From Amphiura filiformis (taxonomy: Eukaryota > Echinodermata > Ophiuroidea > Amphilepidida > Amphiuridae), in the NCBI RefSeq assembly GCF_039555335.1, contig NC_092631.1, positions 496,001 through 560,000 on the forward strand: 64,000 bases of DNA, in the 5' to 3' direction. Each line of letters starts with the position of its first letter. Position 1 is the stretch's first letter. Under the pieces are notes generated by a model that was given only the letters and a program-made list of their open reading frames with translations, made no database searches and was not told the DNA's origin. Below are positions 7,554-50,513 of the stretch, piece by piece. The position numbers and the translations under genes were made by a program.

Positions 7554-7747
<194 letters not shown>

Positions 7748-10157: not shown

Positions 10158-10415
<258 letters not shown>

Positions 10416-10435
10416 TAACCTGTGGAGTATCAAGT

Positions 10436-10800: not shown

Positions 10801-11360
10801 CGTTTTATCTTAATAACTCCCTAAACCAGAAAAATACAGCACTAATTGTTTTGAATTAAAAGAATATGTACTTTAAGGTTATTAATTATTTTAAACTGTT
10901 GTAATTTGGTAGTTCACAGCATCTTACGAATGGTAGTGAGCTTTGGCAAAAACTGCATTGCTCAATTCATAGCGAGCGTGTAGAAGAATTAAAATATCAC
11001 AGATCTACTTTGATAGGTGCTGTGGTTCTTGAGTTACGTTGTAAAGAGGGCTGAAACAACAACACTTTTGTAAAACGTACATAACTCATTACCAACAATA
11101 AATTAAGCAAGTTTGCAAAGTATACGATTTGTAGAATGAACTTTTGCAAAACATCAAGGTGTTAATTTTCAATAATATATTGATCTAGATAATGGAAATC
11201 GATTTTTAGGTTGCTTCGACCAACAATACCTCATCTACCCTTAAGCAACCTTGGAGTATAGGAGCCCAACCATGACTAAAGAACCCCTGGAGAAAATGAA
11301 CTTAAAGAGTATACTTTGTTTATCGATCTAACAAACTATGAATGTGTTTTCTTTTCCTGA

Positions 11361-11798
<438 letters not shown>

Positions 11799-12328
11799 TG
11801 AACAAATTATAATACAAATACACTTGAATATATATTTAAAAAAAAACCATGAAGTTCTATTGTTTTAAAGTAATGAAGTCACCATTAATTTGCTGTCGAA
11901 GTGATGATGTAACAGGATTAACTACCATGGCAATAGATGAATACAATTTTTGAATTAGATCGCCCTGCACTACAACGTTTACCTGTGCTTTGAACCATAG
12001 ATGTCAAAGAAATGCTGATCACTTGCACCTGTAAGATTACTATCTTTGAAAAGAGCGGTATTGTATTCAATCTATGATTGCAGACACACACAGGTGATGA
12101 GTGCAACCTGCTTGTAGTGCAGGGCAATCTATTCAAAAATTGTATTCATCTATCGCTGTGGTAGTTAATCTGATTATTACATCACTTTGACGGCGAATTA
12201 TAGTTTACAGGGAGCATGATCATGGGCCAATGAGACACTGGGTCATGTCTAACTTTGTAAGCATTTCTGGGAACCAAAGCTAGAAATATGGGTTCATTTT
12301 CAGGCCAAAGCTATAAGACAAACTTCCC

Positions 12329-13137
12329 TCATTCTAAGCTGAATATTTTGCTACCAGGGGAGAAGAATGCAGATACTGCAAGTACTCCATCTGATGCGAC
12401 CGACAGCCCTCCATTACAGACCTCCTCCACATCATCAATGACACATCCAGTGCTGTTATACATTGGTGTGCCATTTGGATCCCTTATGTATTTACACACA
12501 TGCCCCTTCCCATTCCCCTTATGATAACATGCAGCATATAATTGATGTGCATCGTTCCTATAGGATACAGCGCAGAAGTCACAACCATCTGCTGGTTTTA
12601 TCCTGCACAGATCCTGACCCATATCTCCCATTGATTTGATTACCATCTCATGATATCCCATTACCAGCAAGTAATCTGTACTGATAGTGAGATCCCATGG
12701 ATTGAAACTAAGGTCTACAATCTTTTGCTGCGTAAACCCTGGCAAACTACACACTACCAATGCATCTGTAAGATGCAGACCTATCACAGCTGTATTGGCA
12801 TTAGCTGCAATACACAATGGCTTCACATTCCCATCATGAATCTGATATTTCTTTACATAGTTTGTTGCTTCATGGTTTGGGAACTGATACACGTAGGGGC
12901 TTCGGTAGCCCAACACTAATACACTGTCAGGCATAGACTCACTCACAGCTACCCCACATGGCCACACGTCCCCTGTCCACTCATCAGATTTTAGGGTGTA
13001 CAGAAGATGGGATTCTTCTCTGCTCACACGATGGACATTGACGCTCAGGAGTGTACACGTAGCCAGATGGTCGCTAGCCAGAAAACGTAATTCTCCGCCA
13101 GAATGATTAACCTCGTGTTTGAACTTCCACTCCAGCC
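12329..13137 (-). CDS. Kinase-propeller gene 1, exon 2: six-bladed propeller-like domain
   Basis: This is the C-terminal exon of gene 1. Its acceptor (TTTCAG, intron side at 13138-13140) and a phase-1 junction join it in frame to the kinase exon, giving 544 aa in total. About 45-50-residue repeats with hydrophobic strands can be aligned into six blades, recurring as PCGVAVSES, PLCIAANAN, PWDLTIST, CAVSYRNDA and GGLSVASDG, which resembles NHL- or TolB-type propellers. The exact family is unknown. It is paralogous along its full length to 44314-45173. A propeller would be expected to bind a protein partner or ligand; this is inference. Confidence 0.8.
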
Positions 13138-13646
13138 CTGAAATGTTAAATGATGATAAATAACTGATGCACTCTTTTAGCACTATTATTGTGAATAAAT
13201 GAATGGATCAAGTGAGTGGGTGAGTGAGCCAGGAGGGAGGGATATAGGGAGGGACTACAAGGGAATGAACGAACAGACTTGGTAAAAAATCAGTAGAGGA
13301 ATATTATATTTGTTAAGTTATCACAAGTAGTCATCAAGCCAAATACAAAACAGAGCAAATAAGTTGAAAGATGGGGTCAGTATGGCATGACGACATTGTC
13401 ACCCAGTTTTACTGGTGAAGACTCATTGCTCATTGATATAGAATCGTTAGAATGGTATGCAGGTACATGTAGTTGGTGCTGTACCCTAGTGGCGCTTTCC
13501 CTAACATGTGACCCTTTTATGTGTAACATGTGTACACTTTTATGTGGATTTATGCCAGCATAGGTTAGGACTTTATTGATGCACGCAGTAACAAAAACCA
13601 AATACTTTTTTGCCATTTATAAACCAAAGTATAAACAAAACGACAT

Positions 13647-14012
13647 TTTTATGTGACAAAACCAAGTGAATTTTTACTCACTACAATATTTCGTCCTTCA
13701 CATCGGAGGACTTCATTAGGTATGACTGATATATGGTCATCTGATCCACTTTCCCGGGAGATGGGTTTCCGGTGATGCTTAGACTCATTTGCAGTCTTTA
13801 AAAGCGAATCATATACTTGGCTAAGGAAATATGTGCCCTCCTCTCTGTTTAAGGTCTTGCTCCCCCTTCTTATCTCCATGGCTTCTCGAACTTCTCCCGG
13901 GAAAGTGGATCAGATGACCATATCAGTCATACCTGATGAAGTCCTCCGATGTGAAAGACGAAATATTGTAGTGAATAAAAATTCACTTGGTTTTGTCACA
14001 CAAAAATGTTGT
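13647..14012. mobile_element. Inverted-repeat relic, possibly Penelope-type terminal repeat
   Basis: Arms of about 100 bases containing CCTGATGAAGTCCTCCGATG and GACGAAATATTGTAGTGAAT face each other at 13647-13745 and 13895-14003. The CTGATGA...GAAA arrangement resembles the hammerhead core that Penelope-like terminal repeats carry, but stem III and the cleavage site do not fit. It lies in the intron of kinase-propeller gene 1. Confidence 0.55.
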
Positions 14013-14372
14013 TTTGTTTATTTAATCAACAAACCTGATGAACTTATTCAACAAACCAAAGTATGGTATCCTCTCCACTGGTGTTCTGATATTTACACCA
14101 CTGGTTATGTTATGGTGGTTGTACTAAAATTTTATTGTGAATGAATTGACCTTTTCGGTAAATCCCATAAGCCTTTACAAATACACCTTGCTGACTTGCA
14201 ATGCACAGTAACGATGTTCGATAAACGATGTGTGCATCAACGCAGATCGGTGTGACATCTCAGGTGTACTCGCAAAAGCTTATTATGGGATTTACTGAAA
14301 AGGTCAGTTGTTTTTGAATTATAACTACAATCATTTTCAAGCATCACTATGAGGTAATTTTGAAGTACCTAC

Positions 14373-15198
14373 CATCAGCTTCAGTAAGAATCTCATCAGT
14401 ACAAGTAGGTGTAGGTCTGTATTCACACCATACACGTCTCACTATTTCACTGCTTTCTGGTCTCTGCATGGGATCTTGATGCCAGCATTTCTCAATTAGT
14501 TCTCTCAAGAATTGGGGACAATCGTCAGGAATTGTTGGACGTAGATCATTTCCCATTACTTCATGGATAACCTTTTCGGATGTAAAACCTTTATATGGTT
14601 CTTCACAAGATATCAATTCCCAAACAATGATTCCAAAAGCATATGTAGCTGCTTTTGGAGACAGTACTCGGTCAGTGAAAATCTCTGGCGCTTGCCATCT
14701 AACATTTTCTTTGGTGCTTGCTTCTGTTCTTGTACTGGTAAGGTCTTTTGCGACACCAAAATCACATATCTTCAACACATCATCAGCAGTTATCATACAA
14801 TTGGGCGATTTCAAATTGAAAAGAGCCACATTGTTTTTCTTGAGGTAGTTAACTCCGCAAGCCAAATCATAGATCCAGCGATGAAGGTGTTTCTCTGGAA
14901 GTCTGTCTTTATCTTTGAGATAGTCATACAAGGACCCTTTAGCAGCAAATTCAGTTATGATAACTACATGTTCTTTTTCAATCACAGTATCATAATACCT
15001 GATAATATTCTTGTGATCAAGTTTCTTTAGGAATTCAATTTCATGTTTGTGCTGTTTTGTGGTTTCTTTGTCAAATTTTATCATCTTCTTAGCAGCAGCT
15101 TCAATGGTACCAAATTCCTTTGATTTCCATGTGCATCTGTAGACGATACCGTTGGACCCGCTCCCTAAGCACTCATGATAAGTCAAACTAGCACCCAT
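14373..15198 (-). CDS. Kinase-propeller gene 1, exon 1: predicted TKL pseudokinase
   Basis: The exon encodes a complete protein-kinase fold of 275 residues, closest by eye to MLK/ZAK-type tyrosine-kinase-like kinases. Visible are the glycine loop GSGSNG at residues 12-17, the ATP-anchoring Lys 37, alpha-C Glu 53, DFG at 146-148 and APE at 170-172. The catalytic loop reads ALFNLKSPN (125-133) where HRDLKxxN is expected, so the catalytic Asp is Asn and the His-Arg is Leu-Phe. The start ATG follows a TTTTTCAG acceptor, so a leader exon lies upstream. The donor GTAGGT after residue 275 joins the propeller exon. The gene sits antisense inside intron 5 of the helicase pseudogene. Confidence 0.85.
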
Positions 15199-15262
15199 GA
15201 CTGTAAATTGTGTTCTGAAAAAGTGATGAGAAATTGAGATGTTGGTTAATAGGAGAAATAAT

Positions 15263-15345
15263 ATTTTGTGAAAGAGTTTGGTGTAGTGATAAGAATACTT
15301 GTTTCTGGTGTATGAGGTCCTGGGTTCAATTCCCGGTGGTGGAAC
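15263..15345 (+). mobile_element. tRNA-like SINE head
   Basis: TTTGGTGTAGTGATAAGAAT resembles an A box and TCCTGGGTTCAATTCCCGGT is a B box with a paired T-stem. The acceptor stem is not closed and the anticodon arm is imperfect, so this is most likely a SINE head and not a tRNA gene. Confidence 0.55.
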
Positions 15346-16457
15346 CTGCTGTGGTATGCACTTTGAATCAATTAAATTGGTTGCATCGGTGGATTAAATT
15401 CAGATTTCCACTCTCCTTATGGTTAATTTAGAAAAAAATAAATCATAAGAGTAATCATTAGCGTCAATCAGGCTTGAAATGTGGGGGACAATCGGCCTGA
15501 TTTGTGGCTGAAAAAGTGACTGAAAAAAAACCCAAAAAAAGTCATTTTGCCATATGGTGGAGGGACGGGATTGACACCCATGAGAGTACTCCATCCTTTT
15601 GGAGGGGATGTTTTAACGCTTAAAAGTGTTGGTTCTGTGTATATCGAGACATAATCACAGTCAGTTTCTAAAAAAGTAGGGTGAAAAGCCCAACAGTCTA
15701 TATCCATCCCGAACACATCCAAAAGATAGACCATTTGGAAAGTACTGCTGCGGCATAAGTTGATTAAAGGGGTATGGTGCAATTTCTTCATGTTCTGTTC
15801 TCTATCTTACATTGCGGCCTACCATTTAAATAATATATGTGTTCAAATTCTGAGTTGTATTGTTGGGGCGTTGCATTTTTCCAAACGGGTGGGGGGGGTG
15901 TTTAAATGAAGTGAATTTTCAATGAAAAAAGCTTCAAAATCGGCGGCCAACTCACTTCCTGGTTCAAATTCAAGATGGCGGGGCACACAAAACCACATGG
16001 AACATGATATTTTTGCAGTAAATACAATGAAATTACATCCATCAGTGCTTCATCAAATAAGAATCTGATGAAATTAGTGCCATAATTAGGCAATGAACTG
16101 GATGGAATTTTTGAGTCATAATAGGTTTTGTCATGCAATTTAGCGACCATCACTGACATGACTGATGCAAGTTTTAAGCTTACTCACATAATATGGCATG
16201 GATACTTTATATTTGTCCATTTTCATTGAAAAATTGGAGGAGAGCATTTATTAGAGGGGGAGCATGCATTTAATATAAACAATACAGTATTTGTTTTGCT
16301 TTATTTTGTCCATAGAATTTTTCATGGAAATGATTTTAATACAAGTTTTATGGAATAATATAAAATAAACTTTTTACTTACCAAAGTGGAAAATCCTATG
16401 TATGTTGATTGTATCAATGCTTTATCATTTTGAGGCTGACCTTATTCAATGTAAATA

Positions 16458-16642
16458 AGGCTGTTCCAGTTGGAATCCCTACACCCCCTATCGAAGACAA
16501 GACCTTAAATCTTCCACACAGGGAGTGTGAATTTCAGTTGGGGTTACCTCAATGAGTTACTCCATTTGAAATCTACACCCCCTGTGTTGGAGATTAAGGT
16601 GATGTCTTTATAGGGGTGTATAATTTCAACTAGAATAAGCCC
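16458..16642. mobile_element. Foldback MITE
   Basis: Near-symmetric arms carry GGCTGTTCCAGTTGGAATCC on the left and the complementary ACTAGAATAAGCCC on the right, with CTACACCCCCTGT blocks facing each other. A relative lies at 29719-29890. Confidence 0.6.
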
Positions 16643-17225
16643 ATAGCAGGACAGGATAATACATGTATGACCTTGATCTTGTCACCATGATTATATTGAT
16701 CAAAGACTTGTTAGTGGGAAATTTTTATGTGGTTTTTAATTTTCGAGCTTTTCGTACTAATTTATAAGCCTGCGAAAATATTTTTTACCCATTTAGGCTT
16801 TCATTTGTAAATGGTCATTGTAATTGCGAGTATAAGAAACAGCAAAACTGCTTCAAACAGTTCAAAAAAGTTAGCGAAAAATTAATACTGCCAAAATATC
16901 ACGTTTTAGGAAGGTAGAATTGTTTGAGCAGGATGACATCAGGAAAGACCACACTATGTAACCACTTGACTTTGATTGAACCCTGGTCTTATTACCAATG
17001 TTACATGGCTTACAATGCTTACCACCAATTGAGATCCAAATGAACATCTTCCAGAAAAAAACCCAATAAAACAAACAAAAAAATCTTCCCAACTTAAACC
17101 TACCCTATTTGGCAAATACAACAGGTTATTTTCTGTTGTCTTAGAGAATTGATTAAGGAAATAAGTTATAAAGTTCTTACCATGCAAATGCAATGATTCA
17201 TTTTTTGCAACTTAAAATTCCACAG

Positions 17226-17649
<424 letters not shown>

Positions 17650-17813
17650 TAGGGTTATCTGATGAGCCTGAGATCAAGTAAAGAATGTTGGATTTTCATG
17701 AAACTTGGTAGAAATTATTACATGTAGGATCCTGTAACCATATTTTGGAAATTGTTTACATAATTGCAAAGATATATATGGCCCAAAATATTGACTTTAT
17801 GTAAGGGCTCATA

Positions 17814-18173
17814 TTGAAATTCCCTTACACAGGAAGATGTGCGCCATCCTGCAGCTTTCCTGTGCTAGCCTTCTTTTGTTAAAATCCTGTGTGATTATAA
17901 CACTGCAATTAGCCATTTAAATTAGGAGCGCGCTTTCCTGGGTTGTGCGATGAGCCGATTAGTTCAATTAGTTCAACAATCAATAAAATTGCCAATCTTT
18001 GATAAACTTTTATTATAATCCTTGTCACCAGACCACTTCAAAAGGCAGGGTGTATCACTGATGCATATAATCCATCCGTTTTATGACCAAGCTTTCCTGA
18101 GGCGCACGCTTAGCGAGGGGAATCCTGCCTTCTTTCTGTGTGAAAGCGTGGTAGGGTATTTCAATATGAGCCG
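17814..18173. mobile_element. GGGCTCATATTGAAAT-family MITE, copy 1
   Basis: The terminal inverted repeats start GGGCTCATATTGAAATTCCC and end with a near-complement. The interior carries an ACTTCAAAAGGCAGGGTGTA block shared with copy 3. There is no coding capacity. Confidence 0.75.
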
Positions 18174-18568
18174 TTATAGGGACATGGGTGTTTAATGGAA
18201 CAAAAAAGGCAATCCAAGGTCTAATTAATTTCATCTGAAGTCAAATTAGTAAAAATTGTTGGATTTTTATGACATTTTGTTGGAGAATATAACTTGCACC
18301 TCCCAATCATGAAAGCAGGTAACACTTGTGGTTCAAGAACTGCATGTATTGTTATATATTCGATCACATCTGGAATAGAAAATGTTTTAAGAAAGTATTA
18401 ATTGTGAAAAACTGTTTCAAGGAAATTAAAATTGGGCAACATTTTATGCACATGCAAGATAACTGGATCTGTTGGTTAAAACAAAGCACACAGATTGAGT
18501 TTTGCATCATATTAAAAAATAAAAAAGTAAAAAGTATAATGTGCATAAAAAGTGATGTAGATTATTTA

Positions 18569-18805
18569 GGGCTCATATTGAAATACCCTACCACGCTTTC
18601 ACACAGAAAGAAGGCAGGATTCCCTTTGCTAAGCGCACAACCCAGGAAAGCGCGCTCCTAATTTTTTAATTAATTTTTAAATTAACTTAAAAGTGGCTAA
18701 TTGCAGTGTTATAATCACACAGGATTTTAACAAAAGAAGGCTAGCACAGGAAAGCTGCAGGATGGCACACACCTTCCTGTGTAAGGGAATTTCAATATGA
18801 GCTCT
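18569..18805. mobile_element. GGGCTCATATTGAAAT-family MITE, copy 2 (internally deleted)
   Basis: It has the same termini as copy 1, in the opposite orientation, and lacks the central block. The flanks read TTA on both sides, which could be a 3-bp target duplication. Confidence 0.7.
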
Positions 18806-19007
18806 TAGAGTGTTCAGGACAAATTAAAAATTTCTTAAATTTTAAAGAAGTTCAAGAATGATTTAAAGAAAATTCCCAGGCAATATTGTTTTTGCGGTGG
18901 TTTTATTATCAGAAGTTTTTCATTTTCAAGATGAGAAACAAGTTAATTGTTATTTCTTAGAAACTTAGAAATCTTTTTCTTCTTGACACATACAGCTGTA
19001 CAACTCT

Positions 19008-19358
<351 letters not shown>

Positions 19359-19512
19359 TAAAACGCCCAATAAAGACTTAGTCACCGGACCGCGCCGGCC
19401 AGTTAAAGTACATGCCCTATCACACCACTCCACACCATACATAAATTCTCCCAGTCACATTTCCCAAATATGAAATTAAAAAAGTCAAATTTTAATTTAG
19501 TTCTTTTAAAGT

Positions 19513-19592
19513 TTGGCAGAGGCGGGGTTCGAACTCACGGCATAACGCTTAGTACTCTATGAGCCTAGCGCCTTAGACCACTCGACCACTTG
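19513..19592 (-). repeat. tRNA-like module in the 3.2-kb element
   Basis: The reverse complement reads TGGTCGAGTGGTCTAAGGCG, an A-box-like start of the leucine-tRNA type, and later GAGTTCGAACCCC, a B box. The T-stem and acceptor stem do not pair well, so a functional tRNA is unlikely. Confidence 0.5.
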
Positions 19593-20637
19593 TCTTGTTG
19601 TTATTCATCTGAAACTTATTTAAAAATATAATCGCAACTTCAATATATGCCTACCACGTTACAAGCAAAGACATAAAACGTATTATATTTTGGAATTTTA
19701 TCTGCTTAAAACATTAATGTGTATTATAATAGAGCTACCGTTATTTATATTGTTGAATTCTCAAGCGCATCATTTCGAATTGGGTTTTTATTCTCCTAAA
19801 GCCCGATACTGACTCCACCTGTACATTTTAATTTCATCGCGGGATGCTGAGATGTTTGAAAAGCATCGCAGCATCGCATACCGCCGCGAAGTGGAGTCAG
19901 GATCGGGCTTAATTCGAACCACCAGCATCCATGGTTCGATGTAGAGAGTCTTTCCTATTCAGAGGAAATACACACCTTATTGCCTTTTAACAATAACCAA
20001 TGACACTAGCACGTAATTCCAGTCAAGCACCAATCTTTAATCCTATTGTTGAAGAGGATAATAAGCTTATACTTATGTATAGTATTATTAAAAAGCTTAA
20101 GTCTTTGTTTGGCTAAATCCTGTTCAAGTGTGGCTAAATCCTGTACGAATGTCAGCGGCGAATGTCAGGTTATTATTTCCCAGTCTTGAAAAAAAAAAAT
20201 TGCAGGCAGAGGTGGGAATCGATCTCGGTACCTCCCGGTTAAAAAGCACTGTGCAAAACCACTAAGCCAACTAAATATCTGTTGTGAGATGCTTGACATT
20301 AATCTTTGATATTGCTTAATGGAACAAATCATGAATTAAATCAGTAATAAAAGAAGTAGATTCTTATTTAGCGGCCAAATTGGATAAAAGGGGAAATATT
20401 TGTCCCTGCTCTAAAGAAAATATAGGTTAGAAAATTATCAAATAAATTTAAATTAAAAATTGAGATTTTATATTTATTTATTTCACGAGGCGGCATTTTC
20501 ACAGACAAACACTGTATACGCTAAAAACTCGACCCTCATTACTAGATGGTAATGTCAATATCGGTGGTTCGAATCCGCCCGTCAGCAATGGTTATTATGA
20601 TTTTAATGCTACGCTACAATTTGTTCAATTTTTTTTC

Positions 20638-20777
<140 letters not shown>

Positions 20778-21549
20778 GAAAGGGGTATTTGAGCAATTTG
20801 AAATTTTTACCCCCGTATAATCATATGGGGTCATTTTGAACCCACCCCCTCCCAAATTGCCAAACTTAACGCACAACACCTATGAGTTTAAATCATACAT
20901 AATGATCAGTAGGCCCTACGTCCATCATGAATGAGTGGTCACTGCATTCATTTGGGAATGTGTAGGGACTGTAGCTTGATTCACCATCCACAACATGATA
21001 ATGTGTGCACATGCTACATTATATACACTTGTAGGCCTATGTTGTTGTTGGTGTATAAGTAATGGGCCTTGCAATTGAAATGCTTTTAATCCGATATTCA
21101 GATTATCTATTTGTTTTCATGAATTGGAAGACATTATTTGATGTATTATTGAGCTCAATGATCTGAAATTACTGGAATGTGAGGTCAGCATAGTATTTTA
21201 TTAACAGAAAGTATAGAGGCCCTGCATGAAATTATCGATTGGCTCCAAACAAAGGATTTGAGCCGGTGTCCTTCACCGTAGTTATGGCGGAGTGCAGTCC
21301 ATTCAATCAAATGTTGTCATCAACCTATTTGATTACAATCATGCTTTTGTTGAATGCATTTGAGTAGTCCGCCATATTTACGGGATGATATGTCACATGC
21401 AAGGCCTCTATTCTCCAAATTCATTTCCTAATGTATGTGAGAATGATACAATAATGACATGATGAACATAGTCATTGATGCATCAGTTTTAAAATAGACT
21501 AGGCGGTTACCATATTTGGCGGTTCTCGGCTGGGCGCGATTACCAGGCT

Positions 21550-22340
21550 GATGGTGACATGCCCATACGACAGTTTTTACTAATTTGACCTCACATGACC
21601 CCTGGCGACCCCAAAATGACCTTCCAAAAATTTGGCTCTAAATGTTGACTGTACCCACTAAGTTTCATGCCCATACGACAGTTTTTAGTAATTTGACCTC
21701 AGATGACCCCTGGGTGACCTTGGATGACCCCAAAATGACCTAAACTTATAACTCTAAATGTTGACTGTACCCACCAAATTTCATGTCCATATATGAGTTT
21801 TTACTAATTTGACCTCAGATGACCCGTGGTGACCTTGGATGACCCCAAAATGACCTTCAAAAATGTTGTTTTAAATGTTGACTGTACCTACCAAGTTTCA
21901 TGCCCATACGACACTTTTTAGTAATTTGACCTCAGATGACCCCTGGGAGGGGACCCGGTGTCAGATGACTTTAAAACGAACATAAACATCTTCTTGCCAG
22001 GACAGAACTACACCCACCCACGCGTTTGAGCCCGTGCACGACCTAGTTTTATGCCCATATGACAGTTTTAGTAATTTTACCTCAAATGACCCCTGGGGGG
22101 GCCCGGGGTCGGATGACTTAACGAACATAAACTTCTTCTTGCCAGGACAGAACTACACCCACCCACCGAGTTTGAGCCTCGCATGCGACCTAGTTTCATG
22201 CCCATATGACAGTTTTTAGTCATTTGACCTCAAATGACCCCTTGGAGGGGGCCCCGGGGTCGGATGACTTAACGAACATAAACTTCTCCTTGCCAGGACA
22301 GAACTACACCCACCCACCGAGTTTGAGCCCGTACGACCTA
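21550..22340 (+). repeat. Tandem blocks within the right part of the 3.2-kb element
   Basis: Seven or so copies of a roughly 100-150 base unit begin CATGCCCATACGACAGTTTTT and contain AATTTGACCTCAGATGACCC. The later copies also include CCAGGACAGAACTACACCCA. The unit is also present in the relic at 1727-2201. Confidence 0.8.
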
Positions 22341-22514
22341 CGACGGCCTCACATTAGCAGTCACAGACAAAACCTAAAACTACAGAATATATCCATTACT
22401 CGTCGATACTCGAAAGAGCTCAAAATAAATAACTTAGAAAATTTTCTTGATGTCCTTTAACATGTTTCCATAGTTAACCATCGTTAGCCATGGATATCTA
22501 TGCTGTAGAACTGA

Positions 22515-22754
<240 letters not shown>

Positions 22755-23591
22755 TAAATGTGATTTTTATAATGTTCCTATAGTTCGTACATGCCTTCCT
22801 TGAGGCAGTAAAATAAAATAAAATTTTGTGATTTTTTTTTTCAAAACTGCTCATTTTGCAGGAATCTGTTATGCTACTTGGATTCCTTTAGGCATTACCT
22901 TTCTGAAAATGTATATTTTTATATACTTATCATCATTACATTTAGAGACACTGAAAAACTAAACTACCGCCTCAAAGCAGGCATAGGGACTATAGTATCT
23001 AAATGCAAGTTTAATTGAAAAGAACTGGGATGGAAAAATGTGACACTTGATGGAAATGTTTGCTCTGAAGTAGAATTTGTTAATAATTGTAGATTTGTTT
23101 AGCCCTACATTTTAGTTCCAAACATCCTGTGACATGTTTGCTGTGTGATCAGTTCTGTTCAGAGAAGATATCTTACACTTCCTTCCCACAATGCATTTCT
23201 TCCAATTTTCTGTACTGATTTGCTATGTTGTGCAACATGGGTCGATAGTGACGAAATATACCTCAATGAACAGAGCACACACAGATCTTGCCAAATATAT
23301 TTATTTCCTAACTATCGACTCACGTTTAGCCAGTTTATTCTCAAAATTAAAACAAAGGAAACCTTCAAAAAGTAATGGAAGCATCATTTGATGAAAGGAG
23401 GTGATGTATCATGTTGCATAGGGTTCTGGGAAGGGTAAGATATCCTCTCTGATTTCTGTCCACATTTGTAAAAATACCGTACACCTCATTCATTTCAAAA
23501 GATACTTCAAAGCATCCTACTTCATTCCAAATAATTTCAAATCGGCTCGGTAAAACTATTGCTGATGATATTGTTTTGGTTTTTTTTTCAG

Positions 23592-23783
23592 CACCAGAGA
23601 CCCTGACAAGAGCTCTAGAGCTTCTCAGCTACTTGGGTGCCCTGAATGACAATGGTGAAGTGACCAAGTTGGGATCTATGATGGCTGAGTTCCCATTAGA
23701 CCCTCAGCTCTCCAAGATGTTGATTGCTAGCATTGATCATAACTGTACCAAGGAGATCTTGATCATAACAGCCATGTTGACAG
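23592..23783 (+). pseudogene. DHX15 pseudogene exon 8 (winged-helix / ratchet start)
   Basis: The exon runs from a TTTTTTTTCAG acceptor to a GTAAGG donor, phase 1 to phase 1. It encodes APETLTRALELLSYLGALND and MMAEFPLDPQLSKML, followed by ITAMLT, uninterrupted and close to the DHX15 C-terminal region. Confidence 0.9.
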
Positions 23784-24285
23784 GTAAGGATTTATAAATC
23801 ACTTGGATCAAATCAAATCAAATCAGCTCTGGAGCTCTCCAAGATGGTGACTGCTAGTATTAGTCATTACTGTGCTTAGGAGATCTTGAGCTATGTTCAG
23901 CTATGTTGACAGATCAAATCAAATAGGCTCTCCAAGATGTTTATTGTTAGCATTCATCAACACTGCACTGACGAGATCTTAATCACCACAGCCATGTTGA
24001 CTGGTAATGATTTATAAATCACTTGGATCAAATCAAATCAAATCAAATCGGATTAAATAAAATTGAATGAACTCTCCCATGATGTTGATTGTCAATGTTG
24101 ATGATAATTGCTCCGAGGAGATCTTGACCATCACAGCCATGTTGGCATGTAATGATTTGCAAATTACTTGGATCAAATCAGCTCTCCCAGATGTTGATTG
24201 CTCTCAGAAGATTTTGACTATCACAGCTATGTTGATGGGTAATGATTTATATATCACGAGATGATGATCATCACAGCCACGGTAG
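23784..24285 (+). repeat. Degenerate tandem copies of exon 8's 3-prime end and donor
   Basis: After exon 8 there are about four decayed repeats of its last 80 bases plus the intron start. Each carries forms of CTCTCCAAGATGTTGATTGC, GAGATCTTGA, ACAGCCATGTTGAC and ATTTATAAATCACTTGGATC. Copies are separated by (AAATC)n runs. They contain stops and are not exons. Confidence 0.8.
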
Positions 24286-25072: not shown

Positions 25073-26227
<1,155 letters not shown>

Positions 26228-26299
26228 GTAAGTAATCCAATAAGTAAAGTCACCTCTTTTTGTATCTTTTTAAGTTTTTAATTTTTAATTTTATTTGTC

Positions 26300-33071: not shown

Positions 33072-33599
33072 AATTAGTGGATAATTAAATCTGGTCAACC
33101 AGAAAAACTCACATTTTGGTCAGATGGAATCACCGACGTTTCGGCCAAAACCTTTGGCCTTCAGCTGGGTGGATGATTTAGGGTCATCCGAGGTCAATCG
33201 ATGAGGAAGTTGCTTGATGACCCGATCCCAACCATGTGACAGATTCACTCTAACGCCCCGCTCCTGTTGAGTGACGGTTGTTCGCTCGCACCCACACTGC
33301 TTCTTTGACTCCCGTTCGTACTCAGCGGGGTTCACGATCCAAAATGACAACGTCGTCAGTGTCAAAACTGTGACCACTGCCCTTAAGGTGTTTGTAGACA
33401 GCTGAATCGTTGCCACTTGAACTGGCGCGTCTATGTTGGGACATGCGACTCTGCAGTGGTTGGCCGGTTTCACCAATGTAATGTTCTTGGCACCCCTGAT
33501 CTTCAGGTTTTGGCCGAAACGTCGGTGATTCCATCTGACCAAAATGTGAGTTTTTCTGGTTGACCAGATTTAATTATCCACTAATTGATCAAATCCCAG

Positions 33600-34484
33600 A
33601 TGACTGAAAGTATACACAGTGTTATTCGAAAGGAATACGGCAAGGATTGCCTCAAACTAACGAAGGATTTCGAGAAAACATCGAGGAAAGTTGCTAACTA
33701 TCGTAACCATTTACGTTTTTCTCTACGGTGCCTACACGCTGATGTAATACCTCGTAGCGCCAGATTACAATCTACGATCAAAGGATCGCGAGTAGAGAAG
33801 ATTCTCCATAATACTGAACGCAAATTATTAAATGAGAGAATAAGACAGATTAACTACACGATCAACAAGTTAAATACCAAAAAGGAAGAAATTTCCGGCG
33901 AGTTGGAAACTCAGTTGCCATTGGAAACATACAAAAGGGTTCAGGAGTTCACCGCACATGCGCAGTTATCGCAACACGAGAAAACAAAAACAAGGCAGGT
34001 AGCAAAATTCGGAAGACTTGCTTCGTCCGGCAGGGCCGATAAAGACACCAATTGGCGCTGTAAAGAGGATAAATCCGCTCACAATATCAGAGATAGATGG
34101 GTTAAGAACCTCTCAGACCGTCCGCTATCGTCTAACGAACAGAGTTTATTGGAAAAGGGCTTGAATTTCGCCGTTACTTCCAAGCGTGTACAAGTGACTG
34201 ATATCATTACTGCCACTGAATCGGCGATTCGCAATGCTCGTTTGGGACCAGCTAATGCTGAAGAACTGAGATCGCGGGTAAGTGCTAGTGTCATCAGCGC
34301 TAAACCCCCCCAACATAACTTGTCTAAAGCTGAATTTACTGCGTTGGAAAGTCTTAAAAAGAACAAAGACATTACCATCCTTCCAGCTGATAAGGGTCGG
34401 TGCACAGTGGTGTTGAATTCGACAGACTATGACAAGAAAGCTAAAGAGTTGTTAGGGATACAAAGACTTATACCCCCTCAATAA
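33600..34484 (+). pseudogene. Penelope-like element, N-terminal and early RT region
   Basis: About 295 codons begin MTESIHSVIRKEYGKD and run through a coiled-coil-like stretch (RKLLNERIRQINYTINKLN) to ITILPADKGRCTVVL, a hallmark block at the start of Penelope-like RT. A frameshift near 34460 ends this frame, and the next frame continues the protein from about 34470. Confidence 0.82.
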
Positions 34485-34524
34485 AGACCCCACGAGTGGT
34501 ATTAAACGCAAGATCGCGGCTAAG

Positions 34525-34936
34525 TTGAACCAATTCTTGGAGAAAGACAAGGTTATTGACATTAAATTGAAACATCAATTATACCCCACGCCTGAAACTA
34601 TACCTACCTTCTATGGACTTCCGAAGGTTCATAAGGCCAGTGTACCTTTACGTCCTATTGTCAGCAGCATAGGATCGGTTACTTATAACATTGCCAAGTA
34701 CCTCGCTAAGATCGTAGGCCCTTTGGTTGGCAAATCGAAACATCATATTTGGAATTCAAAGGACTTCGCGGAGAAAATTCAGGGTATTGTGGTGGACGCG
34801 GACGAGACGATTACATCCTTCGACGTCACTGCCTTGTTCACGAGCATCCCTCCAGCAGACGCGGTACTCGCGGTTCGGGACGTTTTGAAGGAGGATAAGT
34901 CTTTGTCCGAACGCACAGACTTGTCGCCAGATCAGA
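34525..34936 (+). pseudogene. Penelope-like element, RT motifs 1-3
   Basis: The frame encodes FYGLPKVHKASVPLRPIVSS, then YLAKIVGPLVG and the catalytic motif SFDVTALFTSIP, whose Asp is the first RT metal ligand. It is cut at 34937 by the hAT-like element. This is a broken RT. Confidence 0.85.
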
Positions 34937-35490
34937 CAGACGATGGTGGACTACATTATTCACTGTGGCAACAGCCAATATCGTAAACAAAACAGACAAT
35001 ATGACGGCAACACTGCCTGGACATTGGACGCCCGTGCTGAGTTGTGTTTTTAGCTCTATTGGCCCGTTACAGAAAAAAAAATGCACAAAATATATTTCTC
35101 AGTGAATGTATAAATTTTCACATAAAATAAATATTTTTGGATTCAAAATAAATGTGAAGAAAAAAAAAAATAGCCGGAGTCAGCGGGACTCGATCTCGGG
35201 ACCCTATGCACCGCAGGCGAGACCCGTTACCATTAGACCAATAGAACCGTGATACACAATGAGGGAAATTTTAGGTATATATCATAAACAAACAGTGCGT
35301 TATTCATACAAAACATTCAAAAAAACAGTACTTACAATGAGGTTCACTGGCGAACCTCAACGGATTTAGACTGATAAAATAGTGCTTAATAACATACGTA
35401 CAGTTTTGGAATAATTTGAGACATTTTTGTGTTTACGTGTAAAACCAATGACAACGTCAAAATTCAGCCAATCTTGGCCGGCCCCCCCTG
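34937..35490. mobile_element. 554-bp hAT-like element inside the Penelope RT
   Basis: The 8-bp duplication AGATCAGA (34929-34936 and 35491-35498) and CAG...CTG ends point to a non-autonomous hAT element. A homologue at 60561-61125 has its own, different 8-bp duplication. The interior carries a reverse-oriented tRNA-like module at about 35168-35245. No transposase is encoded. Confidence 0.88.
35168..35245 (-). repeat. tRNA-Gly-like module within the hAT-like element
   Basis: On the - strand, TTGGTCTAATGGTAACGGGT is an A-box-like segment, TCTCGCCTGCGG resembles the glycine GCC anticodon loop, and GAGATCGAGTCCCGC a B box. The cloverleaf is imperfect. The matching part of the 60.8-kb copy is at 60818-60895. 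Confidence 0.55.
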
Positions 35491-35498
35491 AGATCAGA

Positions 35499-36024
35499 TT
35501 TGTGAATTGTTGAGCCTTTGTTTGGACAATACTTACTTCAGCTATGGCAATAACTTTTACCAACAATGTCATGGTTGTTCGATGGGCTCCCGGTGTCGCC
35601 GATTATTTCCAACTTGTACATGGAGCGATTTGAACAGTGTGCCTTGTCGTCTTACCCCAGATCTCCACCTTCCAAATGGTATCGTTATGTTGACGATACT
35701 TGGGTTATAGTCAAGTTTTCGGAGTTCGACAAGTTCTTTGCGCATATTAACCAAGTGGATAATAACATCAAATTCACCCAAGAAGGTCTGACGGACAATA
35801 AACTTCCATTTTTGGATTGCTTGGTTACTGTCAACCAAGATCGCACTCGCTCAGAATCTGTATGTCGCAAACCAACACATACTGATCAATATTTGCAGTT
35901 CAGCTCTAATCATCCATTGGTCCAGAAACTCGGTGTAGTGAATACTCTTTATCACAGGGCCGATACCATCATCACAAAGGACTCTGATAAGATCAATGAG
36001 CACCAACACTTGCACCACGCCTAG
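35499..36024 (+). pseudogene. Penelope-like element, RT motifs 4-7
   Basis: After the insertion the RT resumes with CSMGSPVSPIISNLYMERFE (split by a frameshift near 35590), the catalytic RYVDDTWVI and GLTDNKLPFLDCLV. The YVDD box matches the family. A stop near 36024 follows and the downstream part is frameshifted. Confidence 0.85.
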
Positions 36025-36244
36025 AAAGCGTGTGGTTACAAAGACTGGGCAATTGACAAGGCCCTAAATCGTGGTGAGAATGACGCTAATCCAGCCAGCG
36101 AACCCACCGCGTCTTCTGGTACCAAGACTTTTGTCACCATCCCCTACCATGGGGATGTTTCAGAGAAATTAAAGAGGATCTACCGCGATCACGGCATCAC
36201 TACACACTTCAAGCCAACCAATACCCTGCGGCAGTCGCTAGTAC

Positions 36245-36640
36245 ACCCTAAAGGACAAACAGCCCAAGGGCCGTTTAAGTGGTGTTGTGTATGGTGTCCA
36301 GTGCGCTGAAGATCAGGGGTGCCAAGAACATTACATTGGTGAAACTGGCCAACCACTGCAGAGTCGCATGTCCCAACATAGACGCGCCAGTTCAAGTAAC
36401 GATTCAGCTGTCTACAAACACCTTAAGGGCAGTGGTCACAGTTTTGACACTGACGACGTTGTCATTTTGGATCGTGAACCCCGTTGGTACGAACGGGGAG
36501 TCAAAGAAGCAGTGTGGATACGAGCCGAACAACCGCCACTCCACAGGAGCGGGGGCGTCAGAGTGAATCTGACACATGGTTGGGCTCGGGTCATCAAGCA
36601 ACTTCCTCATCGATTGACCTCGGATGACCCTAAATCATCC
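36245..36640 (+). pseudogene. Penelope-like element, GIY-YIG endonuclease
   Basis: The sequence encodes VVYGVQCAEDQG, then HYIGETGQPLQSRMSQHR, the GIY-YIG nuclease core with its conserved Tyr, Gly and Arg, then SFDTDDVVILDREP. It follows the RT as in Penelope-like elements. Confidence 0.85.
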
Positions 36641-36775
36641 ACCCAGCTGAAGGCCAAAGGTTTTGGCGAAGCGTCGGTGATTCCATCTGACCAAAATGTG
36701 AGTTTTCTGGTTGACCAGATTTAATTATCCACTAATTGATCAAATCCCAGATGACTGAAAGTATACACAGTGTTA

Positions 36776-44313: not shown

Positions 44314-45173
44314 TTATTCTAAAACAAATATTTGTGTTCCTTGATGTGGACTTTGTTCTACTACAGCATAAAAGTGGGTGCCCATGGATACAGCAAGTGC
44401 CCCAGCTGATGTGACTGACAACTGTCCGTCCCACACCTCACCCAAATTATCAATGACACTTCCAGTGTTGTGATACTCTGGTGTGCCATTTCCTTCCCAG
44501 GTGTATTTGTACACACACCCCTTCCCATTCCCCTTATGATAACATGCAACATATAACTGCCTTGCATCATTCCTATAGGATACAGCTTGAAATGCGCAAC
44601 CATCAGGTGGTTTTATGCTACACAGATTCTGACCGATATCACTCAACGGTTTGATAACCATCTCATAGCGATCCATTACCAGCAAGTAACCTGTACTGAT
44701 AGTGAGATCCCATGGATGGAAACCATTACTAAGGTCTAAAACCCTTTGCTGTGTAAACCCTGGCAATTGACAAACTACCAATGTATCCCTATCAATTAAA
44801 CCTATCACAGCTGTATTTTCATTAGCTACAATACACACTGGCCACATATTCCCATCATGAATCTGATATTTCTTTACATGGTTTGATGCTTCGTGGCATG
44901 GGAATTCATAGACGTAGGAACTTGTGTAGGCTATCACGAATATGCTGTTAGGCATAGACTCACTCACAGCTACATCCCATGGATACACATCACCCTTCAG
45001 ATCACCTCCTCTCCACTCATCAGATGTTAGGGTGTACAGTAGATGTGTGTCATTCCTGCTCACATGATACACTTTCACACTGCGTAGTCTAGTGATAATA
45101 GCCAGGCGGTCACTAGCCAAAAACTGCAGTTGTCCCTGAGAATATATCTCATGCTTCAACTTCCACTCCAACC
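44314..45173 (-). CDS. Kinase-propeller gene 2, exon 2: six-bladed propeller-like domain
   Basis: This is the C-terminal exon of gene 2. Its acceptor TTTCCAG is followed by the Gly-Leu-Glu-Trp codons, joined in phase 1 to the kinase exon, and the full protein is 560 aa. The blades are visible as repeated strands: SDRLAIITRL, PWDVAVSESM, PVCIVANENTAV, PWDLTISTGYLLV, QAVSYRNDA and LSVTSAGALAV, about 45-50 residues apart, giving six. The fold is NHL- or TolB-like by appearance, with no exact family named. The stop TAA overlaps an AATAAA, which may be the poly(A) signal. Confidence 0.82.
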
Positions 45174-47458
45174 CTGGAAAGGGAAATAATAGTCATTGAC
45201 AAACTACTTAATTCAATTTTGTTATTTCAACAAGGATTAAAATAAATATGCAAAAGTCTTCTTAACTATCAAATATGGAACAAGCAAGTACAGCGGGGGC
45301 ATACAACAAATTAGGCAGTTACTACTAATAAAAGGCCATCTTCCTCTGTAGGGGCTCACCACAATTCTGATGAACACAAATTTAACACGACAATATCAAA
45401 GTGCTTGACTCCAACTCGAGATGGCTTCAGAGGGGCATCAAGGAAGCGTATTACATAGTGGCCTTGGACCCCGACCTTAACCAAGACAAAGGAAGACATG
45501 TGCTATCTGGCGTCTACAAACCGATCATCAAGTCATGTGACCATGGGTTACCCTGTGGGTCACATGACTAGGTGTTTACCGCACTACCTCACTTTCTGAT
45601 GAAATGGATGTGGGATGAAATATCAAGTAAGTCAAATATTTGTTGAGAGAACTGTTTAAAATCTCTGTTTATCTACTAATCTGCTTGTTTGAGAGGTTTC
45701 AAGTACCCTATAATTTCTTGCTTGGAATATTACTGGTCCTGTGTCTCAACCTGGGGTACCTTTGTGTTACATATAGTAAAAAAATGAAATGTTTCAAACA
45801 TGTTACCTACACGTCTCATTTGAAGTGGTTCATCCTCCTGAGCATTTTGACACCTTTTTTTTTTTATGGAAATCGGTTAAAAAATGAGAGAGTGCGGGCA
45901 AAAATAATCACAAAGTAGCTGGGATTTAACCCCACCTCTTTTTTCCACATTTACAATCATTCTGAGCAAGTATTAGTCTTTTAAATGACCTTCTGTATTA
46001 ACTTGGTTTAGATGTCTGGGAGTTCATTAAAAATTTTTCTACTAGATTCAAATTTTTAATGGGGGTTTTAAGGCCAGAGTAATGGAAGACACATCCATCC
46101 ACGCCCGAATTTGAGATTTCTTGATATTTATCAACACTAAGATGTATTCTTTCACTTGAAACTGATAGAATACAACTTGCTAATATTTACTCGTATTTTT
46201 GCTTGATTTATTTTACTCGTTTCAACTCTAAACAGTCACATGGCTCAAGACAGCTTAGTAAATTGGCGGGAAATAATGAGTCAGAATGTGCGAATGCGAA
46301 ATATTGTGATTATGCGCGTGATTCGCGTGGCGTGACGCGGAGCAACTCTGCGCGTATGTCCAACACAGTCAAGGCGCATTCGGTATGTTGTTAACGCCAA
46401 CAAATGTGGTGTAAACAAAACAAAAATTTGCAGTCAAAATGCCACTTAGATTTTTTAATTATTTTGAATTTTGGCGCACTGAAAACAGACATAGATTCAT
46501 TGGTGCAAAAAGATGCATATTTAGACCATGCACCAGTTACAGCTTTTACAAGCGTGAAAGTCTTACCGTTTTAAAATATAAGGACGTTTTGTGCGTAATT
46601 TTGACATTTTTTTTACAAAAACATCAATTTCTCAGAGTTCATATTTGACAATATTGCACGATTTTTGTTACATGATAACTCGAAAAATATGCAAGCAATC
46701 GTTTAGAGTACATCAAAGTCTGGGGGAGGTTTTCTCATTTTTTCAAAATATTTATTTTAAACAAAAATATACACCATTACGTGCAATTTTTAGCTTAATA
46801 GAGTGACAAAATGACTTTTTTTTCACATGTTTTTTTCAATATTTCGAAAAAAGAGATGAATATCTAAAAAATAAAAAAACCTTCCCTAAGTTCATATCTC
46901 TTCTTCATGAAAAGCTAACTGAATTTTTTTTACTCCGAACGGATTTTTTTCTAAGTGGTCACAAAAAAATTGGGGTAAAAAAGTGAATTTTTGTGATTTT
47001 TTCAAAAACTAGAGATTTTTGAACCCATCTGACGTCACCATGAGACTCCTTGACTCATTTCCTTTCCAAAAATGTATAGTTTTATATACTTTGGACATAC
47101 AATTAAGAAATAATGATGCTCAAAAAGGGCCATGTTCTCTCCCATTACTCTGCCCTTTAATCAAATTTACGATATGAATCCCTCCCCCTAATCCTCAACC
47201 ACCCTTGGCACATAACATTTCATGCCAAACATCATAAGAAAATAATTATTTTAAAACAGGTTAAAAACATGAGTAATATAGAATAAATTAGCCTCAATTT
47301 AAGACCTAATTGAATCTTCTAAGTGAAGAAATACTCAAGAGACAGTGTTTTGAAATCCAAGCTGCACATCAAAATGTAACAATACCACCTTTTTGGGTAC
47401 CCCAGTATATGACACAGGATCTACTACATTGAATTAACTCTAAAAATAGATTACCCAC
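45174..47458 (-). other. Intron of kinase-propeller gene 2
   Basis: The intron is 2.3 kb, phase 1, and bounded by a GTGGGT donor and a TTTCCAG acceptor on the - strand. It contains the inverted-repeat element at 46069-47163. The corresponding intron of gene 1 is 1.2 kb, so the two introns differ by later insertions. Confidence 0.75.
46069..47163. mobile_element. About 1.1-kb element with TTAA...CAGAGTAATGG ends
   Basis: The left end TTAAGGCCAGAGTAATGG and the right end CCATTACTCTGCCCTTTAA are inverted repeats, imperfect at two positions. No coding capacity is evident. It lies inside the gene 2 intron, between kinase and propeller exons. Confidence 0.65.
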
Positions 47459-48281
47459 CATCAATCTCGTTAGGCTCATCAGCATCAGGAAGTCTAGGTC
47501 TGTATTCACGCCATACTCGCCTCACTATTTCACTGCTTTCTGGTCTCTTTGTGCGATCTTCAAGCCAGCATTGCTCCATTAGTTCTCTCAAGAATTGGGG
47601 ACAATCGTCAGGTATTGTTGGACGGAGTCTATTCGCTACTACTTGGTAGATGACCCTCACAGGTAGAAAGTCTTCGTATGGTTCTTCACATGATACCATT
47701 TCCCAAACAATGATTCCAAATGCATATATAGCAGCTTTTGGAGAAAGTACTTGTTCATCAAATATCTCTGGTGCCTGCCATTTCACACTTCCTCTGATGG
47801 CACTCCTTGTGGTCTTGCTACTGGTAAGGTCTCTTGCAATACCAAAATCACAAATCTTTATGACATCATCAGTCATTATGATACAATTGGTCGATTTCAA
47901 ATCGCAATGAGCCACATTGTTTTGATTGAGATAGTTAACTCCGCAAGCCAGTTGATAGATCCACGAATGAAGGAGGTTTTCTGGAAGTCTATCTTTATCT
48001 TTGAGATAATCATACAAGGACCCTTTAGCAGCATATTCAGTTACAATGGCTACATGTTCTCTCTCTATTACTGCATCATAATACCTGATAATATTCTTGT
48101 GATCAAGTTTCTTGAGGAACTCTATCTCACGTTTTTGTTTCTCTTTGATTTCTCCATCAATTTTAATCTTCTTGGCAGCAGCTTCAATAATACCAAATTC
48201 CTTTGACTTCCATGTGCATCTGTAAACGGTACCACTGGACCCGCTCCCTAGGCGTTCATGATAAGTCAAATTAGCGCCCAT
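47459..48281 (-). CDS. Kinase-propeller gene 2, exon 1: TKL protein kinase, catalytic residues intact
   Basis: The exon encodes a 274-residue kinase domain, closest by eye to MLK/ZAK. The glycine loop is GSGSSG (12-17), with Lys 37, alpha-C Glu 52, catalytic loop HCDLKSTN (125-132), DFG at 145-147 and APE at 170-172. The HRD Arg is Cys but the Asp and Asn are present, so activity is plausible. Residue 185 of the alpha-F helix region (AIYAFG) is Ala where Asp is usual. The start has a strong context (GCCATGG), 17 nt after a TTTCAG acceptor, so a leader exon lies upstream. It is a paralogue of gene 1 over its whole length. Confidence 0.88.
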
Positions 48282-50513
48282 GGCTTCAAGGTATGATCTG
48301 AAACAAAGGTTATGGTTGTTGATTAAACCCATATTATAACATATCTGTAAGAATAGATTAGTATTTATTTTCCATAAAATGTTAGCTTTTACTGTCAGAT
48401 ATGTGCCCTCTTAATTTTGAGCCGAACAAGTGAGGTAAAGCATAGAAAATTGGAATTTACTACTATAGCTAAAATAATAGTTTCTTGATCATGAGAACTT
48501 AATAGGCACGCAATGACAATTGCATCGGCGTACAATGCCTACCACACACGCTTAGGGTAGCACTGCATTTCCTGTGTGTGCACAATCAATTGCGCTATCG
48601 CACACCGACATCGCCCGGTTAATATTAAATTACACTATACAGCAAGAGACACTGAAATGAATACACAGGATCGATACATGTGGATGTGCTATGCACGATT
48701 GATATTCAGACGATAAATCTTTGGATACCGGGGTTGAAAATGCTGAATATCTCCCGTAAATGATTTCGTATAAAGAAACCAGATGTGGTTCCTTGCACTT
48801 GAATATATATTTTGAACAGATATGATAGTCGTTAGCTTGCGTCTTGAAAAAGAACCGTGCGTCTTGAGTCAAAACCTGACAATAATTTTGATTTATATGT
48901 GCCGAATTATATAGCGCAGTGTATAGGCCAATCGTGAAGGTAGACTAAAAGCATATGACCTATGGTGTACCATGCTCAACTGACACACAGCGAGGTCAGT
49001 AACCGAGCTAATCGGGGCTATTGTCAGTAGCCTTAGTCAGATGTCCTTCGGCCCATTAATGCGACTCAAAACTATTAAACAGGTCGATACAAAATGGCTA
49101 TGCGTGGCGGTGGATTCAACCTACCATGGCGATTTCTGCCATGAAGATATCGGGGCGATGACACTGTGTATCGTGTCATTCCACTAAACTTGCGACATTA
49201 CGCAGTGCAGGCAGTACATTCATACTCTCATGATCGAGAAATTATTATTTTAGCTATAGCGCCAATGCATGTTACTCCCGCAGTTGTAATACGGTGTGTA
49301 TGTATGTGTATTCCGCATGCCGTGTAAATACTGTGCATACGTGTTCAACTAATATTTCCATCATAATAATAAAACAACGGTTCCTGCGTTTTATTCAAAA
49401 TCTCAGATTTTGACAAAACTACAGCACCTAAAGTCTTGATTTTTGCAGAGTATCTTTATTGACTAAAGTACATTACAATTGTGTAAAAACCAGAATTTAA
49501 CATTTTTTTGAGGGCGTTCTCCTCAGCAAATGTTATGGCTTTAATGGGAGAAATAATCCTTCTGTGTATATGTATATGGGCAGGGGTGTTAATGTAGGGG
49601 TGTGTTTGTTTACTGTGCCAAATGAGGACACACACCTGACTCTTAACGAGGACACACTTGCAATGGGGGATGCATCCTCACTCTTTTATAGCTGCAGTGG
49701 ATTAATTGCTGATAGCCTAAATATGTATTTTATGCTTTATGTGTACCCCAAAAACAACTATATAAAAAGTCCATGTTTCGCTGCAGTTTGACCAGATGTT
49801 ATGGTCGGATAGTAAAAAGTCCTTGGTGTAAGAGTTTTTACCTAACATCCACATTTGATAGCAGGAACGTGTAGGGGTGGATGTGTGTGTGGATGTATGT
49901 GAAAGTTTTGGTTAAGGTTTTGCTACCACCTCCAATGCATAAGGCCTCTCTACAAAATAACTTTGACACAAGTGCCCATGAGTAAAGTTGGTTATTATGT
50001 CAGCTATGTTGTCAAAGATCACAGGTGAAAGGTCATTTGAGGTAATTTTCTAAAATTGTTCCAACTGCTTCTTTTGTTGATGCAGCTGCATCTAGGGGTC
50101 ATGTAATGTCTTTGTGCACATATTTTGAGGGTTCTTCATGCATTTTATTTGGTTAAACATACATGTATTGTTTAAGAAAGTTACATAAAACAGTACACAC
50201 AAGTATAACAGCCAAAATAGAGTTAGAAAATAGACAGCACCTGTGATCCACCGATCTCCTTGTCTTGAGATAATTATGTTTCTTCTAATGATAAATAAAA
50301 TCATTCAGGTATTTAGCAAAATGTTCTGTAATTTTCCTTATTATAATTCCTATAAATCAGAAGAAAAATGGATATTCAAACTTTTCTTATCCATTTTTCA
50401 TTTACACAAAATAAGGGAGAAAATAGAAATTGTACTGTGGATGAACAAACTCTTCACTCACAAGCACTCATCCAATCAATGATAAAATCAATAGCGGCAC
50501 AGAATGTTATAGC
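48282..50513. other. Upstream region of gene 2; promoter not located
   Basis: A leader exon is implied by the acceptor just upstream of the kinase start, but neither it nor a TATA box could be placed. The remaining sequence has no recognised gene. Confidence 0.4.

Follow-up and report, generated by a model that had tools for sequence, protein, structure and literature searches.

The DNA analysed here, referred to as the window, is a stretch of 64,000 nucleotides from the brittle star Amphiura filiformis (contig NC_092631.1, positions 496,001 to 560,000). It carries two paralogous two-exon genes on its minus strand, copy A and copy B, in each of which a protein kinase domain is followed by a domain of divergent sequence that is very probably a six-bladed propeller. 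Exon 1 of copy A (47459..48281, 823 nucleotides, with the ATG at 48281) encodes a ZAK/MLK-like kinase of the tyrosine kinase-like (TKL) group, and exon 2 (44314..45173, closing with a TAA at 44316-44314) encodes the probable propeller, as judged by repeat and profile tests. Between them lies a phase-1 GT-AG intron of 2285 nucleotides (45174..47458), whose donor follows 47459 and whose acceptor precedes 45173, and joining the two exons in frame gives a product of 560 amino acids. A preliminary description of this DNA had proposed a 560-residue in-frame product formed across a phase-1 intron, with one domain per exon; the exact coordinates bear out the product, the intron starting with GT and ending with AG, and the division of domains is true of copy A and is repeated in copy B.

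Copy B, also on the minus strand, consists of a paralogous kinase exon (14373..15198), in which the catalytic-loop Asp is replaced by Asn (LFN) and which is predicted to encode a pseudokinase, a phase-1 GT-AG intron of 1235 nucleotides (13138..14372) and a paralogous propeller exon ending at a TGA (12329..13137). Its product of 544 residues has the layout and intron phase of copy A. The two copies are identical at 197 of 273 residues in the kinase and at 181 of 268 in exon 2, and the ratio of nonsynonymous to synonymous divergence (dN/dS, NG86) is 0.154/0.482 (~0.32) for the kinase and 0.206/0.514 (~0.40) for exon 2, which indicates that both exons have been constrained since the copies separated. 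When the 64-kb window was searched at E 1 by tblastn, using six proteins of the family, no third copy appeared, the only additional matches being two pieces at chance level (E 0.46 and 0.21); Rfam gave 0 matches. An acceptor-like AG stands 16 nucleotides upstream of the ATG in both genes, at 48298..48299 in copy A (TTTGTTTCAG) and at 15215..15216 in copy B (TTTTTCAG), both on the minus strand; it points to an untranslated 5' exon, probably further upstream, although none was found.

That the two exons belong to separate genes, or that their join is an artefact of gene modelling, is extremely improbable. The GT-AG intron lies at matching phase and place in copies A and B, and two A. filiformis database proteins, P0001 and P0002, join the kinase to the exon-2 domain. 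P0001 (561 amino acids) is closest to copy A, with 90% identity in the kinase, 91% in the propeller and a shared two-domain layout at the level of protein comparison; P0002 is closest to copy B (92% and 96%, respectively). In addition, P0034 and P0036, both from contigs, continue past the kinase with the residues GK, as expected if a GGT AAG donor lies close to the position used in copies A and B (the codons being inferred). The Pfam kinase match, the conservation of both exons in copy B and the layout of P0001 together make the two-exon gene more than a chance arrangement.

The domain encoded by exon 2

Exon 2 contains six repeats, segments of 28-49 residues that can be aligned by MAFFT. Their spacing was examined by a chain test, a search for similar windows 34-56 columns apart, with 100 column shuffles and 100 block shuffles as controls. 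With windows of 14, 18 and 22 columns the chain had six places; its score was reached by 0 of 100 column shuffles in each case and by 1, 0 and 0 of 100 block shuffles. The strongest test of a propeller is the search of PDB with a blade profile built from 69 repeat segments, together with its reversed control. At E up to 10 the profile returned 25 rows, led by UTP4 (7.6e-5), and we take 22 of these to be propellers, among them UTP4, TRIM71, TRIM2, TRIM3, Aip1, RACK1 and PkwA. Each of the 13 rows with E no higher than 0.25 belongs to these 22, and the three exceptions are 7ytt_B, 9f5x_V and 9uzo_F. The reversed segments returned a single row, 1em2_A, which we take to be a non-propeller. The six-bladed propeller that had been proposed by eye is thus supported by the chain test and by the blade profile with its control, and we regard exon 2 as very probably a propeller of divergent sequence.

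A match to a named propeller family, which the preliminary description had raised as something that would make the gene less novel, did not emerge at family cut-offs in Pfam, NCBIfam or whole-domain PDB searches. The whole domain matched zero Pfam and zero NCBIfam families above the curated cut-offs, and in PDB at E up to 10 there were zero matches for the single sequence and for a 9-row profile; a 29-row profile gave three weak rows, the best being 2hes_X (E 0.51), presumably a WD40 protein. Among the 29 exon-2 members, Pfam matched 11 families weakly, three of them propellers (WD40_like 0.11, NHL 0.14 and Lgl_C 0.23), and NCBIfam five, one of them a propeller (PQQ_ABC_repeats 0.011). NHL had no match above its cut-off and was seen at E 0.14 in one of the 29 members; WD40 likewise had none, the WD40_like match (PF17005), present in one of the 29, scoring 12.2 bits where 40 would be required; and CNH was unmatched at E up to 1 in copy A and at E up to 10 in the 29 members.

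Several results weigh against the propeller assignment and favour a different one, namely that exon 2 encodes a beta-rich repeat domain that does not close into six blades. No Pfam family matches above its cut-off, and the best weak matches are to non-propellers (Me-amine-dh_L in Pfam, E 0.027; Lsa16 in NCBIfam, E 0.0092). When the propeller profile was aligned with itself as a single pair, its score was equalled in 6 of 60 and in 9 of 60 shuffles, which falls short of significance, and the hhalign comparisons of 15 blade pairs were unconvincing (probability 0.06-31%). At a window of 26 columns the chain had five places, and although its score was reached by 0 of 100 column shuffles, it failed against the block shuffles, 13 of 100 of which reached it. 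The blade-profile rows are in part repeated entries of the same proteins (four TRIM71, three TRIM2), and most of the matches leave out the last third of the repeat. On the other side stand the six-place chain, the propellers that make up most blade-profile rows and are absent from the reversed control, and the fact that the weak matches include four propeller families (WD40_like, NHL, Lgl_C and the PQQ family); we consider a domain other than a closed propeller very unlikely.

The kinase and its family

The kinase of copy A matches Pfam PF07714 with E 2e-62. Among the best 60 of 2621 PDB rows, the order is 9p9u_A (labelled EGFR), MLT/ZAK, DLK, an SRC-ABL ancestor, CTR1, MLK4, TAK1 and MLK1, the remainder being other tyrosine kinases; MAP4K is absent from these 60 rows. 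The top row, 9p9u_A, is a 678-residue chain (4.9e-56), and its EGFR label may not describe the part that is matched. In the protein search with the kinase region, among the best 120 of 1157 matches, the nearest named kinases outside Amphiura by identity are vertebrate MAP3K20-like proteins and Npk (39-43%); some fungal proteins outscore the fish MAP3K20-like kinases, but at 31-33% identity. The assignment of the kinase to the MLK/ZAK-like part of the TKL group therefore stands, with MLT/ZAK next after the EGFR-labelled row and MAP3K20-like/Npk closest by identity. Pfam matched neither SH3 nor SAM in copy A and nine Amphiura relatives, and no search for a leucine zipper was made; ROC, COR and LRR were likewise unmatched by Pfam in the 560-residue product.

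In the spliced-protein setting, a search with exon 2 retained nine proteins from 591 candidates, all of them from A. filiformis. A profile search at E up to 1 gave 25 proteins, comprising 23 reading frames from contigs (P0010-P0022 and P0024-P0033) and two A. filiformis proteins (P0006 and P0023), and the kinase-region search added P0040, encoded on another long contig of A. filiformis, in which the exon-2 domain scores 344.7 bits. Both full domains are present in seven A. filiformis proteins (P0001, P0002, P0004, P0005, P0007, P0008 and P0040); P0006 holds the kinase end only, P0009 the start of the exon-2 domain only, and P0023 has a low-complexity N-terminus. Altogether 34 of the 146 proteins scored have the exon-2 domain, the others scoring 1.2 bits or less (best 69 rows of the sorted table). 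The low scorers include vertebrate MAP3K20-like kinases, and also nine kinase frames that, as single exons, are unable to show one. The protein searches depend on shared words and limit length, the kinase matches considered are the best 120 of 1157, and the restriction of the named members to A. filiformis is not proof that the family is absent elsewhere; one scan each of prokaryotic and viral contigs confirmed no relative. This is a multi-gene family of brittle-star kinase-propeller proteins, so far named from one brittle star only.

Two further proteins of A. filiformis have other layouts. In P0003 (505 amino acids) the propeller domain follows a macro-like domain and not a kinase. The macro-like match is weak (Pfam E 0.026, under the cut-off), which tells against it, and PDB gave zero macro matches for this part; the layout could reflect exon shuffling or a fusion of gene models. 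P0047 (647 amino acids), also a related kinase, shows 44% identity; near residue 355 it has a hydrophobic stretch resembling a membrane span, and the propeller domain is unmatched in it. No membrane span is evident in the two window copies, the highest 19-residue hydropathy being 1.45 in copy A and 1.61 in copy B, versus 2.79 in P0047.

Of the 36 pairs that can be formed from the nine full-length proteins, 30 show greater similarity in the kinase than in the propeller. The kinase and propeller trees of these nine both recover the pairs A/P0001, B/P0002 and P0005/P0007. The kinase tree further unites A, B and P0004 (95/94) and the propeller tree does not; the rival forks of the latter are weak (58/53 and 45/13), and they do not decide between a single fusion and later exchange of domains. 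A tree of 24 kinase rows, in which the program flags long branches, separates the 19 kinases of the family, together with P0047, from four ZAK/Npk rows (100/100); the position of P0047 outside the 19 is unsupported (39/38).

The catalytic residues vary within the family. Lys and DFG are kept in all 19 kinases, and the catalytic loop reads HRD in 14. Copy A (AAAKK, HCD, DFG, AAIYAFG) keeps the VAIK Lys, the catalytic Asp and DFG, but is non-RD, a state shared with P0001 and P0004, which also read HCD; in copy B (LFN, AATYAFG) Asn replaces the catalytic Asp, which is lost in P0002 as well. These same five kinases (copies A and B, P0001, P0002 and P0004) lack the alpha-F Asp, which is Ala in copy A, and they cluster in the tree (99/95). 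It might be supposed that the window copies are decaying or purely non-catalytic, serving as scaffolds or being en route to loss, with B a pseudokinase and A impaired. The missing RD Arg and alpha-F Asp of copy A, the motifs of copy B and the grouping of the five kinases would fit this. Against it, the reading frames are open, dN/dS indicates constraint on both exons, and Lys and DFG are retained, which leaves this supposition improbable.

Ten of the 19 family kinases start with MGxxx[ST], a pattern that fits N-myristoylation but often arises by chance. These kinases are also not independent of one another, it is uncertain where the contig frames start, and for P0035 an internal Met was taken as the start. 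The sequences suggest that these members may be anchored to the membrane by myristate. As to the non-RD state, a passage of PMC8463890 ties non-RD kinases to innate immune signalling across kingdoms; this tie is an association and no evidence for the copy A gene.

Other elements in the window

Copy B is flanked on both sides by probable exons of a DEAH-box helicase-like gene on the plus strand (window 7083-23797), with a Walker A peptide near 7083 and HA2 domains at 23453-23794 (Pfam E 1.4e-11). Given these exons on either side, copy B probably lies within an intron of the helicase-like gene, on the opposite strand. Two further helicase-like pieces, at 11361 and 17302, were unmatched in Pfam at E 0.01. 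Within the intron of copy B itself, at about 14160-14300, inverted arms resemble, by eye, a short inverted-repeat transposon.

A broken retroelement occupies 33585-36724 on the plus strand; at 35554-36021 it matches a reverse transcriptase in Pfam, though weakly and below the cut-off (E 8.5e-05). Its downstream frame appears GIY-YIG-like by eye and is unmatched in Pfam; a GIY-YIG frame beside a reverse transcriptase is the arrangement of Penelope-like elements. On the minus strand, frames at 8660-9415 and 25297-26277 resemble, again by eye, the tails of non-long-terminal-repeat reverse transcriptases, and Pfam gave no match at E 0.01 for 8660-9415 and 25541-25951. At 20464-20820 a short repeat of TTTA type, which translates as FIYLFIYL, forms a long run.

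Known kinase-propeller proteins and a possible role of the propeller

The likeness to ZAK/MAP3K20 (MLT) and teleost Npk lies in the kinase domain, at the vertebrate identities given above. ZAK carries a leucine zipper and SAM (two SAM accessions are listed for P0135), and in the Npk and MAP3K20-like proteins compared the propeller is unmatched, unlike in the Amphiura family. LRRK proteins follow a TKL kinase with a WD40 propeller of seven blades and also contain LRR, ROC and COR, for which copy A has no Pfam match. The TRIM-NHL proteins TRIM71, TRIM2 and TRIM3, which rank among the top PDB matches of the blade profile, possess a six-bladed propeller, but it is partnered by RING/B-box and not by a kinase. 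Bacterial PkwA, whose chain is one of the blade-profile rows, and PknD combine kinase and propeller in one chain, the PknD propeller being extracellular beyond a membrane span. The MAP4K proteins are STE20-group kinases with a long linker and a C-terminal citron homology domain. For one of them, HPK1 (MAP4K1), the closest worked example encountered of a kinase with a C-terminal propeller, passages of PMC11066036 describe a C-terminal propeller of seven blades that binds the N-terminal kinase domain, a contact tied to lower activity, and that also helps to dock the substrate SLP76; exon 2, by contrast, has six repeats and no Pfam CNH match.

The preliminary description had named LRRK as a TKL kinase with WD40 and had called a compact kinase-propeller protein unfamiliar. 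Precedents beyond LRRK do exist in HPK1/MAP4K, PkwA and PknD, and what looks new is the pairing of a ZAK-like kinase with an unnamed propeller, in a family some of whose members are non-RD or pseudokinases. This impression stems from the literature surveyed: a compact ZAK-like kinase with a single phase-1 intron and a propeller was not described in the titles and abstract openings of the open-licence PMC articles covered, and in the main text of the A. filiformis genome paper, as far as it was available (PMC11310086), 'propeller' and 'NHL' have 0 occurrences.

The variability of the domain bears on its possible role. The division into strands and loops is a reading of the repeat pattern by eye, which weakens what follows; in WD40 propellers the D-A and B-C loops share one face. 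Over 35 rows the mean entropy was 2.38 bits in the D-A and B-C loops (63 columns) versus 1.53 bits in the A-B and C-D loops (57 columns), with p 5e-8, a value that is only a guide because columns are not independent and rows are related. The contrast persists in the 12 window and Amphiura rows (1.66 versus 0.99) and in the 10 rows left after removal of P0023 and P0040 (1.40 versus 0.70). In the A/B pair, dN/dS is 0.334/0.844 (~0.40) for the top loops (D-A and B-C), 0.220/0.548 for the bottom loops (A-B and C-D) and 0.172/0.367 for the strands. Also on the debit side, this pair, the sole one with DNA, yielded no sign of positive selection on the top-face loops, which do evolve faster.

The uneven variability of the putative faces lends some help to the earlier suggestion that the propeller senses a ligand or partner and regulates the kinase. 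By analogy with the C-terminal propeller of HPK1, we consider there to be about an even chance that the propeller both regulates and addresses the kinase in a brittle-star family of intracellular kinases, its variable face meeting partners specific to each paralog. The D-A and B-C loops would bind ligands or partners that differ between paralogs, and the conserved face or the sides would contact the kinase or a common partner; engagement would release or cluster the kinase, and a MAP3K-type signal would be passed on. Activity would be expected of the 14 HRD members, whereas copy A, being non-RD, could dispense with the usual switch in the activation loop and still be active; copy B, lacking the catalytic Asp, would act as an allosteric or decoy partner. 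Myristate would hold the MGxxx[ST] members at the membrane.

The propeller could instead be a fixed substrate-docking or scaffold module on a kinase that is constitutive or regulated elsewhere, with the paralogs differing in the substrate held (for example a MAP2K). The contribution of the HPK1 propeller to SLP76 docking is in keeping with such a role, and the variable face could equally be substrate-specific. Yet copy B and P0002 lack the catalytic Asp and the A and B exons are nevertheless constrained, and docking alone needs no retained pseudokinase; we consider this possible and rather unlikely. A tentative extension of regulation and addressing by the propeller, which we likewise consider possible and rather unlikely, is that these are intracellular sensor kinases whose propeller exon may be an exchangeable recognition cassette, set on active, non-RD and pseudo-kinases and in one protein on a macro-like domain, with its putative ligand face diversified by paralog and possibly serving innate immunity.

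Because the exon-2 domain has no Pfam match, a family model would improve how proteins that currently carry the labels 'MAP3K-like' or 'uncharacterized' are annotated. If the proposed role is true, a regenerating echinoderm has a MAP3K-type kinase coupled directly to a propeller, and the family offers a built-in comparison series of active, non-RD and pseudokinase members whose putative recognition face diverges between paralogs. Whether an animal lineage uses propellers as variable sensors inside the cell would then become directly testable.

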